A stretch of 6,025 bases of DNA from Christensenella sp. UBA5399 (GTDB lineage Bacteria > Bacillota > Clostridia > Christensenellales > Christensenellaceae), in contig DHOD01000117.1 of the NCBI GenBank assembly GCA_002407725.1, positions 2,825 to 8,849 on the forward strand, given 5' to 3'. Both the position numbers and the translations under genes were made by a program. Below, piece by piece: positions 2,619 through 6,025 of this stretch; the first letter of the stretch is position 1; each line of letters starts with the position of its first letter. The notes under the pieces are model-generated. The model was not told the origin of the DNA. It searched no databases and saw nothing but the letters and a program-made list of their open reading frames with translations.

Positions 2619-2650
2619 GATCACTTGGATAGACAGAAAGGATGAAAGAA

Positions 2651-3805
2651 ATGAGAAAAATCACGATAATCGCCATTGTGATCGCATTGGCGGTGTGCCT
2701 TGGCGTTGGATGCAGCAAGACGGAAGAACCGGAAGCGACAGCCACGCCGGTAGCGCTAACCAACACGGGAGACGAAACCCCGACGGCCGAACCGGTGGTT
2801 GAACCGGAGGAAGAGGAAGAGCAGGGATATATTCCCGATGAATATTCGCCCACGACAGGGCTGGAGAACACCACAACGGAATACAAACCGGTGATTGTGC
2901 AGATAGAGAACGAACCGCCTGCGCGCCCCCAGCGGGGCATACAGTGGGCGGATATTGTCTACGAGACGCTGATAGAGGGTATTGACACCCGTTTTACCTG
3001 TATTTTTAACGACATCATTTACGAAGTGGATTCGCCGGAGGAGCTGGAGGTGGGGCCGGTGCGCTCGTCGCGCTACTACCACCAGTGGATACAGGGCGAA
3101 TGGGATGCCCTGTATGTGCATGTGGGCGGCGCAGAGACGCCCGATGTGGAAAGCTACATCTGGGGCCCCAGTGCGGACCATATCAAGCAGCGGATCAATG
3201 CGGCGGGCAAAAACCCGTCCAACGCCAATTTGATTTACAGGCGGCAGGGTACGGGCAAAGCGCTGGAGCATACGGCGTATACCGATCTGCATGCGGATTC
3301 CGAAATATACGATTATACACCGACCATGCGCCAGCCGTTTCAGTATTATCCGGAAGAGATGTACGACGACGCAAAGGACGTGGAGAAGGTGGAACTGGCA
3401 TTTTGGCGGTCACCTGGCTGGGTCGAGTACCGTTATGATGAAGCCAAGGATAAGTTTATCAGGTATATGAGCGGCGATGAATTTATTGCGGAAGAGACCG
3501 GCGAGGCGCTGGAAGTGCAAAATGTCATTGTGCAGTATTGCAGCGTATCCGATTTTGCCAACGAGGGCGGGCGCAAGCAGATCAATGTATTTGGCGAGGG
3601 CCCGGCGGAGTTTTATATCCGCGGAAAACACCTGAAAGGCACATGGAGCAGGGTGGACGACGCCAGTGCGCCTACAATCTACAAGCTGGAGAGCGGCGAG
3701 GAAGTGACGCTGGCCCCGGGCAACACGTGGATTGAAATCCACCCCAACAACAAGCAGGTGGTCACAACCTATACGGACGGTACGGTGGATGAAGTAAACG
3801 CATAA
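2651..3805 (+). CDS. DUF3048 domain lipoprotein (YerB-like)
   Basis: A 384-residue predicted lipoprotein facing the outside of the membrane. The signal peptide is MRK plus a hydrophobic stretch ending in LGVGC; C21 would be lipidated, although the lipobox has G rather than L at -3. A low-complexity acidic Pro/Thr/Glu linker (about 22-65, including EEEEE) leads into the N-terminal DUF3048 domain. Landmarks there are the segment from TGLENTTTEYKPVIVQIENE, RPQRGIQWADIVYETLIEG, and VGPVRSSRYYHQW (starting near nt 3052). The C-terminal DUF3048 part follows, with GPAEFYIRGKHLKGTWSR and an end rich in PGNTWIEIHPNN. Bacillus YerB belongs to this family; its biochemical role is unknown. The ATG at 2651 is preferred because AAAGG (2637-2641) lies 9 nt upstream, whereas the in-frame ATG at 2642 directly abuts that site. 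The gene is monocistronic: own promoter upstream, strong terminator downstream. Confidence 0.9.
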   Translation: MRKITIIAIVIALAVCLGVGCSKTEEPEATATPVALTNTGDETPTAEPVVEPEEEEEQGYIPDEYSPTTGLENTTTEYKPVIVQIENEPPARPQRGIQWADIVYETLIEGIDTRFTCIFNDIIYEVDSPEELEVGPVRSSRYYHQWIQGEWDALYVHVGGAETPDVESYIWGPSADHIKQRINAAGKNPSNANLIYRRQGTGKALEHTAYTDLHADSEIYDYTPTMRQPFQYYPEEMYDDAKDVEKVELAFWRSPGWVEYRYDEAKDKFIRYMSGDEFIAEETGEALEVQNVIVQYCSVSDFANEGGRKQINVFGEGPAEFYIRGKHLKGTWSRVDDASAPTIYKLESGEEVTLAPGNTWIEIHPNNKQVVTTYTDGTVDEVNA

Positions 3806-4497
3806 ACGATGCAAGCCAAAGCGGGCGCCAAAGGCGCCCGTTTTTTATAGTTCAGAATACCCGTCAGAATTGACGATGGCGTCCAGATTCCGGCCAGGGC
3901 GTCCAGATTCCGGCCAGCGGCGCACAACGCGCATGTTTCCGGCGGATAAGTCATATAATCCTGCACATCCGCGCCGGTGAACACCGCGTTTACGGGGATG
4001 CCGTCGATCTCGCGCAGGGCGCTGAATACGGTGCAGACGCCCGCAAGGATTGCGCCGTAGTATTTCAGGCAATCGTACGCGCGTGTCACTGTTTTGCCGG
4101 TGGAAATGGAGGACAGAAGCAGCAACACGTTCTTGCCGCGCACGGCTTCCTGCGCATAGCCGCGGAAGATCATCTGGTTATTGGCGTTCAACTCCGGCCG
4201 TACGATGGCGATATCCTGGTCGCTGTTCATGCCGGTAAAGCTGGACTTGGAAAGCGCCTCCGCCATCAGCGCACCGATGGTATCCGTGTTTTCCAGACAA
4301 AGGATCGCTTCTACCAGGGTGCTCTCATAAAATCCGGCCAGGATTTCCGCCGCACCCCTGGCTGCGAAGAGGTGTGTCCTGACCTTGGTGAGATCGATAT
4401 AATTGTTGATGTGTGAATGATTGGCCGCAAAATGCCCCTCTGCGACATCCATTGTAACCCCCGCATCGGCCCGCGAACGTATACTTTTAAATTGCAT
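3769..4497 (-). CDS. Orotate phosphoribosyltransferase-like protein, C-terminus frameshifted
   Basis: Cytoplasmic type I phosphoribosyltransferase of a Clostridia-type family usually named after orotate PRT. The true substrate is not established. It starts at ATG 4497 with GGAGG (4506-4510) 8 nt upstream. Family landmarks are VAEGHFAANHSHINNYIDLT (residues 18-37), CLENTDTIGALMAE (67-80), the PRPP-loop-like VLLLLSSISTGKTVTRA (124-140), YYGAILAGVCTVFSA (146-160), and a CALC cysteine pair (189-192) before GRNLDA. After residue 200 the frame is broken by a 20-bp tandem duplication. The present frame then reads 42 unrelated residues through the neighbour's terminator hairpin and ends at 3769, inside the DUF3048 gene. 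With one copy removed the protein ends IVNSDGYSEL at a TAA (3845-3847), giving 210 residues and the expected family ending (LDALVNxxGYSKL type). The catalytic core is intact, so the protein could still be partly functional. A sequencing or assembly error is possible. Confidence 0.83.
   Translation of the reverse strand: MQFKSIRSRADAGVTMDVAEGHFAANHSHINNYIDLTKVRTHLFAARGAAEILAGFYESTLVEAILCLENTDTIGALMAEALSKSSFTGMNSDQDIAIVRPELNANNQMIFRGYAQEAVRGKNVLLLLSSISTGKTVTRAYDCLKYYGAILAGVCTVFSALREIDGIPVNAVFTGADVQDYMTYPPETCALCAAGRNLDALAGIWTPSSILTGILNYKKRAPLAPALACIVYAFTSSTVPSV
3822..3846 (+). terminator. Intrinsic terminator of the DUF3048 gene
   Basis: Perfect 8-bp GC stem CGGGCGCC (3822-3829)/GGCGCCCG (3833-3840) with loop AAA, followed by six T (3841-3846), 16 nt after the stop codon. 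The T-run overlaps the stop codon that the convergent PRT gene would use without its duplication (3845-3847). On the minus strand no T-run follows the stem, so it acts mainly on the plus strand. Confidence 0.93.
3878..3917. repeat. Perfect 20-bp tandem duplication in the PRT gene
   Basis: The unit GGCGTCCAGATTCCGGCCAG occurs at 3878-3897 and again, base for base, at 3898-3917. The match extends no further on either side. Because 20 is not a multiple of three, the second copy shifts the minus-strand reading frame of the PRT gene at codon 201. Slipped-strand duplication is the simplest origin. Confidence 0.97.
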
Positions 4498-4523
4498 CGC
4501 ATTTACCTCCCAGGATTATGAAG

Positions 4524-4721: not shown

Positions 4722-4780
4722 ATAGGTTGCTGATAGAAGAACCACGAACCGGTTTATAGTGATCAGGTATTGAACGATCC

Positions 4781-4796
4781 CCGCGCATATGCGCGG
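4781..4796. repeat. Perfect 16-bp palindrome in the glnA leader
   Basis: CCGCGCATATGCGCGG is its own reverse complement. As RNA it gives a 6-bp GC stem with an AUAU loop. Followed by AATTATAG rather than a T-run, so it is not a terminator. It shares the core GCATATGC with a second palindrome at 4844-4855. Confidence 0.6.
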
Positions 4797-4803
4797 AATT
4801 ATA

Positions 4804-4898
4804 GCAATTTGTCAAAAGGTTGGAAACAAACTTTTGGTATAAATTGCATATGCAAGCGGTTTCTCACTTGCCTGATTCAACCGGTATGAAGTTGAATC
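4804..4898 (+). promoter_or_regulatory. Structured glnA 5' leader with competing hairpins
   Basis: Hairpin A runs from GCAATTT (4804-4810) to AAATTGC (4841-4847), enclosing CAAAAG (4813-4818)/CTTTTG (4831-4836) and TTG/CAA around a GAAA tetraloop (4823-4826). TTGCATATGCAA (4844-4855) is a palindrome that reuses the 3' arm of A. GCAAG (4852-4856) can instead pair with CTTGC (4867-4871). A separate perfect 8-bp hairpin is GATTCAAC (4874-4881)/GTTGAATC (4891-4898) with a 9-nt loop. These pairings cannot all form together. The arrangement resembles a leader that switches between folds, but I recognise no known riboswitch class, T-box or ANTAR two-hairpin target (no hexaloops with A1 and G4). Confidence 0.45.
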
Positions 4899-4976
4899 GC
4901 TGTAAAACACAGGATGTTCTAGTTGGTGAATAGTATAAGTAGCAGGCATGCATGTGCCGGAATAAGGAGAGAGTGA

Positions 4977-6025
4977 ATGGCCAAATATTCTTTGGAAGAT
5001 ATCGAACGGATTATAGAACAGAAGGATATCAAATTTATACGCCTTCAGTTTACGGATGTTTTTGGTATATTGAAAAACATCACTGTCATGGCAAACCATG
5101 TGCAGCGCGTGCTGGAAAAGGGCTGTATGTTTGACGGATCGTCGATAGAAGGTTTTGCGCGGATAGAGGAATCGGACATGATGCTGGTGCCGGACATCGA
5201 TACGTTTGAGGTGTTTCCCTGGTCCAATCCGACAGGCAGGACGGCGCGGTTTATCTGCGATGTGTACACGACCGCCGGTGAGCCGTACGAGGCGTGTCCG
5301 CGGCATATACTGAGAAGGCAGCTGGAACGCGCAAAAAAACTGGGGTTTGATTTCAACATTGGGCCCGAGTGCGAGTTTTTCCTGTTTGAAAGGGATGCGG
5401 AGGGAGAGCCGACGCTCACCACAAGCGACGAGGGCGGGTATTTTGACCTGGCGCCGCTGGATACAGGCAGCGGGGCACGCCGGGATATTAGCCTGGCGCT
5501 GGAGGAGATGGGATACGAGATAGAGGCGTCCCATCACGAGTGTGCGCCGGGCCAGCACGAGATTGATTTTAAGTATGGCAACGCGCTTAAGATGGCGGAC
5601 GACGTTATGACATTTAAAATTGTGGTAAAGCGCATTGCAATGGCGCACAACCTGCATGCAACGTTTATGCCCAAGCCGTTGTACAATGTCGCGGGTAGCG
5701 GCATGCACGTCAACATGTCGCTGCGGGGAGAGAGCGGGAACGCTTTTATGGATGCGAATGACGAATACGGGCTTTCAAAAAATGCGTACGGGTTTATGGC
5801 GGGCGTAATCAACCATGCGCGCGGGCTTGCGCTGCTGACAAACCCGACAATCAACTCATATAAGAGGCTGGTGAGCGGGTTTGAGGCGCCGTGCCACATT
5901 GCGTGGTCTGCCAAAAACCGCAGCCCGCTGATCCGTGTGCCGCACGCAAAGGGCTCGGCAACACGAATCGAGCTTCGGAACCCCGACCCGACGGCAAACC
6001 CCTACCTGGCGTTTGCGGGCATACT
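4977..6025 (+). CDS. glnA: Glutamine synthetase, type I-alpha (3' truncated)
   Basis: Cytoplasmic dodecameric enzyme that makes glutamine from glutamate, ammonia and ATP. The frame is open from the ATG at 4977, with AAGGAG (4964-4969) 7 nt upstream, to the right edge: 349 codons of a family length near 444. The N-terminal beta-grasp domain contains MFDGSSIEGFARIEESDM (51-68). R62 matches the Arg important for glutamine feedback inhibition in the Bacillus enzyme. The catalytic domain shows GPECEFFLF (129-137, metal-binding E131 and E133), SHHECAPGQHEIDF (185-198, E188 and E195), the ATP/metal signature KPLYNVAGSGMH (233-244, H244), NPTINSYKRLV (289-299), the flap glutamate in GFEAP (E303), NRSPLIR (314-320) and RIELRNPDPTANPY (330-343). 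No insertion of the I-beta type is seen. The C-terminal tail, where GlnR interaction or adenylylation sites would lie, is outside the window. Expression may be controlled through the long structured leader. Confidence 0.97.
   Translation, partial: MAKYSLEDIERIIEQKDIKFIRLQFTDVFGILKNITVMANHVQRVLEKGCMFDGSSIEGFARIEESDMMLVPDIDTFEVFPWSNPTGRTARFICDVYTTAGEPYEACPRHILRRQLERAKKLGFDFNIGPECEFFLFERDAEGEPTLTTSDEGGYFDLAPLDTGSGARRDISLALEEMGYEIEASHHECAPGQHEIDFKYGNALKMADDVMTFKIVVKRIAMAHNLHATFMPKPLYNVAGSGMHVNMSLRGESGNAFMDANDEYGLSKNAYGFMAGVINHARGLALLTNPTINSYKRLVSGFEAPCHIAWSAKNRSPLIRVPHAKGSATRIELRNPDPTANPYLAFAGI

Follow-up and report, generated by a model that had tools for sequence, protein, structure and literature searches.

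Identical repeat units that abut one another tend to slip. In bacteria, variable segments that lie between repeats of less than 30 bp were ascribed to replication slippage as their likely origin (PMC2884548, in the portion of the article accessible to us). Slipped-strand phase-variable loci are treated in PMC12817950, the accessible portion of which reasons, with regard to the genome studied there, that a faulty assembly would be expected to collapse repeats, not to expand them. Here, we describe a perfect tandem duplication of 20 bp close to the end of a gene for a protein with a predicted phosphoribosyltransferase (PRT) fold. The window, i.e. the whole stretch of 6,025 nucleotides that was analysed (G000:C53:2825-8849), belongs to a draft genome of 161 contigs and 2.27 Mb that is 91.5% complete. 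In our estimate, it is roughly 70% probable that the duplication is slip-derived and probably recent, and that it shifts the frame of an accessory PRT-fold gene and probably inactivates it. Neither the duplication nor the PRT-like gene was described in the literature searched, as judged from titles and the beginnings of abstracts.

The tandem duplication

The repeat GGCGTCCAGATTCCGGCCAG consists of two head-to-tail copies at 3878-3897 and 3898-3917 with 20 of 20 bases identical, which bears out the description, in an earlier note on this DNA, of abutting identical 20-bp units near the gene end. In the direction of the gene, which lies on the reverse strand, the copy at 3898-3917 comes first, is read in the family frame and ends with GRNLDA (residue 200), and the exact second copy at 3878-3897 falls in the shifted frame, which starts with residue 201. 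The pair is the sole perfect tandem repeat in the window with a unit of 12-200 bp, at a chance expectation from base composition of ~9e-9 per window for perfect tandem repeats with units of 20-200. In 23 stretches of the same genome, covering 334,970 non-N letters of ~2.27 million, we counted four perfect tandem repeats with units of 10-150, namely this pair and three with units of 10, 10 and 12. The genomes of two relatives (20 stretches, 400,000 letters) yielded six, with units of 10-13.

The run of period-20 identity at 3878-3917 spans exactly 40 bases and neither edge shares another base, i.e. a 20-bp unit has no flanking microhomology. Tandem Repeats Finder gave a second, partly different reading, with 2.2 copies of a 21-bp unit and one indel at 3878-3922, since the initial GGCG of the unit recurs one base past the second copy. 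For a 21-bp unit minus one base, this GGCG amounts to 4 bp of microhomology. Two histories would fit the sequence: a recent replication slip may have duplicated the 20 bp at once with no microhomology involved, or it may have duplicated 21 bp in frame via GGCG, with one base lost in addition. An exact 20-bp unit speaks somewhat against slippage, as simple slippage usually leaves flanking microhomology.

The same feature, exactly 20 bp without microhomology, suits an unmerged k-1 overlap, so that the draft could have doubled the 20 bp falsely, e.g. through an unmerged 20-base overlap at k = 21. The 161-contig draft is rich in N-runs (68 over 23 stretches totalling 346,117 letters), and one such run, either a scaffold gap or withheld letters, lies directly at either edge of the window. 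A systematic error should recur, yet the 334,970 non-N letters contain no second exact 20-bp repeat. Furthermore, the identical two-copy protein of 242 amino acids is encoded, according to the database count, on two contigs, of which the longest has 133,886 bp, compared to 43,722 bp for the scaffold of the window; the neighbouring DUF3048 protein has the same contig count (2) and the same longest contig (133,886 bp). Because the identical protein was counted on two contigs, the longest of them other than the window scaffold, an error of one assembly is unlikely; if one of the two is the window scaffold, the other is separate from it, although it may share the same reads. The argument of PMC12817950 quoted above, made in its accessible portion for another genome, weighs in the same direction. 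The assembly error considered in the earlier note is weakened by these observations, and we regard it as unlikely.

The shifted frame and the relatives of the protein

In its present form, the PRT-like gene spans 3769-4497 on the reverse strand and encodes 242 amino acids. By eye, a ribosome-binding-site-like GGGAGG is present on the same strand at 4506-4511, 8 bases before the ATG. Residues 1-200 are family-like, and the gene body (residues 1-199) contains no stop and is identical to the relative P0002 at 149 of 199 positions. After residue 200, the protein departs from the family pattern: the shifted frame covers residues 201-242, encoded together with the stop at 3769-3897 on the reverse strand. 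This tail overlaps the terminator-like hairpin of the convergent DUF3048 gene and the 3' end of that gene (2642-3805, forward strand), to which the open reading frame extends antisense by 37 bases. The arithmetic of the earlier note, with 242 residues now, 42 of them shifted, and an end antisense to DUF3048, holds on recalculation.

On the reverse strand, 3845-3877 still encodes the family-type tail, IVNSDGYSEL plus stop, but lies outside the frame of the two-copy form. This out-of-frame tail shares 8 of 10 residues with the tails of the nearest relatives, P0002 and P0003, and the tail in the current frame matches at most 3 of 10 residues of any of 46 relative tails. With the duplication, the final ten residues of the family would be swapped for 42 unrelated ones. 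As 20 bp is not a multiple of three and the family-type tail lies in another frame, changing the number of units toggles the reading frame. These results support the earlier proposal that the duplication frameshifts an otherwise intact, family-conserved gene. A ribosomal frameshift rejoining the family tail was considered as well and rejected, since no slippery heptamer was evident in the unit by eye.

The relatives stem from a search of 5.8 billion proteins, which returned 47 matches including the query, i.e. 46 other proteins of 176-222 amino acids, with P0002 and P0003 the nearest at 72-73% identity to the window protein. Conservation of the family columns reaches into the tail, with an invariant A200 and at least 90% conservation at N203 and G206. 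Relatives sharing the long tail would have spoken for a genuine extended C-terminus; none of the 46 exceeds 222 amino acids, and all 40 loci that could be parsed out of 44 (L072-L075 did not fit the pattern used) end 18-19 residues past a CxxC motif, these relatives being from other species.

The structural consequences were assessed on AlphaFold2 models. The model of the intact relative P0002 has a mean pLDDT of 92.6, with strands at 200-203 and 206-209 and a mean pLDDT of 89 over the last ten residues. For the two-copy protein of the window, the mean pLDDT is 84.7; the 200-residue core is modelled with confidence and residues 205-242 are under 50. The C-terminal beta-hairpin is thus predicted to be lost from the two-copy protein, and loss of function is likely, the shifted tail probably inactivating the protein. 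Given the open reading frame and the confidently modelled core, partial function is possible. The same two features would be compatible with the 42 residues being a tolerated or even functional new C-terminus. This tail is, however, present in none of the 46 relatives found and its model confidence is low. It also crosses the terminator-like hairpin of the neighbour and runs antisense to DUF3048, and its sequence is therefore dictated by these two elements. We consider a tolerated or functional new C-terminus very improbable.

Two further comparisons concern the gene body. Outside the tail, the window protein deviates from the family at 4 of 48 conserved columns and P0002 and P0003 at 2 each (P0047, with an unrelated N-terminus, was omitted from this count). 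In 18 relative-rate comparisons, which are not independent of each other, the window protein exceeded its sister in unique changes in 14, fell below it in 3 and tied in 1; two of the 18 reached p < 0.05 uncorrected, both with P0016 as outgroup. From these counts, it is possible that constraint on the gene was already relaxed before the duplication.

Copy number and a possible switch

Exact abutting repeats are established to slip readily, and gain or loss of one 20-bp unit would alter the frame at a place where the family tail survives out of frame. Cells could, in principle, alternate between a one-copy form with the family tail (on) and a two-copy form with the shifted tail (off). The locus has, however, two units only, and a repeat tract kept at the same place in relatives, as in phase-variable loci, was not seen: a tandem repeat with a unit of at least 9 occurs at the corresponding place in 0 of the 40 parsed relative loci (of 44), the 9-bp tandem repeat of L065 lying elsewhere. 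The protein cluster holds one distinct sequence on two contigs, both two-copy, which is a tiny sample, and 17 of the 18 genomes from the bacterial family, not all of which are complete, lack the gene. In sum, we regard such a reversible slippage switch as highly unlikely. The more specific version, a live switch on a non-catalytic nucleotide sensor of PRT fold, in which slipping between one and two copies would attach or remove the conserved C-terminal hairpin and thereby turn the sensor on or off, is a long shot.

No one-copy form of the same species was found among the database proteins, where the next DUF3048 protein is 71% identical, nor in a pattern scan of viral_contigs. In G001, a genome of the same genus that is 72% complete, there was no PRT match. 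Its glnA (residues 104-349, C33:1-738) starts at the contig edge, and since the region upstream of this glnA is missing, the absence of the PRT gene from G001 is uninformative.

Genomic context and distribution

The PRT-like gene lies between the convergent DUF3048 gene, which is followed downstream by an intrinsic-terminator-like hairpin matching the consensus (3818-3844, forward strand), and the divergent glnA for a type I glutamate-ammonia ligase (4977-6025, forward strand, cut by the window end). DUF3048 and glnA are 1,171 bases apart in the window. In five of six genomes of genus g5 from the same bacterial family, DUF3048 is directly followed by glnA, with aligned ends 123-275 bases apart and no PRT match (E 1e-6) in between; in the sixth, G005, the two genes are apart. 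A profile search (E <=1e-20) over 396 genomes sampled from the order recovered the PRT-like family in 43 of them, including that of the window, and in 1 of the 18 genomes of the bacterial family of the window, several of which are incomplete. Judged by this distribution and by the adjacency of DUF3048 and glnA in genus g5, the PRT-like gene is accessory.

The gene neighbours of the family were surveyed with a crude greedy open reading frame call, which placed the PRT itself in a cluster for 21 of the 29 loci. No neighbour was shared by more than 5 of the 29 loci, and one cluster of five loci was an open reading frame antisense to the PRT. Five of the 29 loci share another recurring neighbour that lies upstream of the PRT, among them L014:1432-2712 (426 amino acids), L015:2540-3880, L020:46-840 and L022:647-1945; judged by its sequence, it may be an O-acetylhomoserine sulfhydrylase-type enzyme.

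An Rfam scan of the window returned nothing up to E 1. Between comF and a DivIC-like gene, about 500 bases (1546-2060) contain no recognised gene and no Rfam match. The leader of glnA (4776-4942) contains nested dispersed repeats, in which a ~60-bp unit with hairpin-like arms is split by a ~105-bp element. The ~60-bp unit occurs intact elsewhere in the genome and, by eye, the ~105-bp element ends in TA in most copies. These leader repeats have 31 matches in the genome at E <=0.001, including those of the window itself, and a further 9 copies of the inner element, nearly complete in length, were aligned (12 rows, two of them repeating a place). None were found in G001, and the leader repeats had no Rfam match. 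The arrangement resembles the insertion of a MITE into another repeat.

Identity of the PRT-fold family

At a threshold of 0.001, neither Pfam nor NCBIfam names the window protein. Alignment A2, comprising 41 of the 47 proteins (P0035, P0037, P0038, P0041, P0042 and P0047 were left out), contains members with weak matches to PRT models, 29 of 41 to PF00156 and 37 of 41 to pyrE_Therm (E <=0.1). Against the latter model (TIGR01367), P0002 reaches 18.1 bits, below the NCBIfam cut-off of 150.25, compared to 217.3 bits for the canonical pyrE of the same genome at G000:C81. The E-D pair in the PRPP motif of this pyrE aligns to L-S at residues 128 and 129 of the window protein, and D or E is found at either of these positions in 0 of the 47 family rows. 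As a result, the family was not filed as orotate PRT, an assignment that we tried and did not adopt in view of the missing acids and the low score of P0002. The predicted fold is that of a type I PRT, the closest folds being HP1257, adenine PRTs and PurR, and the family keeps a GHFxxNHSH-like motif and CxxC; a search of the sequences of solved structures with the A2 profile gave 0 matches at 0.001. With the PRPP-motif acids missing, the family could serve in ligand sensing instead of catalysis. Of the "conserved PRT" in the earlier note, the family-wide conservation of the gene stands, whereas the fold is a prediction, the acidic pair is missing throughout the family and the gene is rare in the bacterial family.

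Since this PRT-like gene is rare in the bacterial family and the genome carries a separate canonical pyrE, loss of the protein would be tolerable. Our preferred reading is a recent slip disrupting the end of an accessory gene. What the duplication highlights is the strong conservation of the last residues in this PRT-fold family, which is mildly interesting in itself, as it was recovered by profile from 43 of the 396 sampled genomes and lacks the acids of the PRPP motif in all 47 rows.

Comparison with known systems

With regard to the protein, the family shares the predicted type I PRT fold with the orotate PRT pyrE_Therm (TIGR01367) and differs from it in the PRPP motif, where non-acidic residues take the place of the E-D pair in all 47 rows. 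The genome's own pyrE has, like the PRT-like protein, GHF near the N-terminus (by eye) and CxxC near the C-terminus (aligned). The structures of HP1257 (4paw), an adenine PRT (6fsp) and B. subtilis PurR (7rmw) share 20, 12 and 15% identity, respectively, and such likeness of fold shows no function.

With regard to the mutation, the locus resembles the slipped-strand phase-variable loci of PMC12817950, as far as its accessible portion describes them, in that a change in copy number would shift the frame; it differs in having two units only and in showing no variation (one sequence on two contigs). Compared to the small variable segments of PMC2884548, in the portion accessible to us, the 20-bp unit differs in having no flanking microhomology and in being known from one form alone, but shares with them short exact direct repeats of less than 30 bp, for which gain and loss of copies are expected. 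As a mutation, such a short exact duplication, disrupting the end of an accessory gene, is ordinary and of a known kind.
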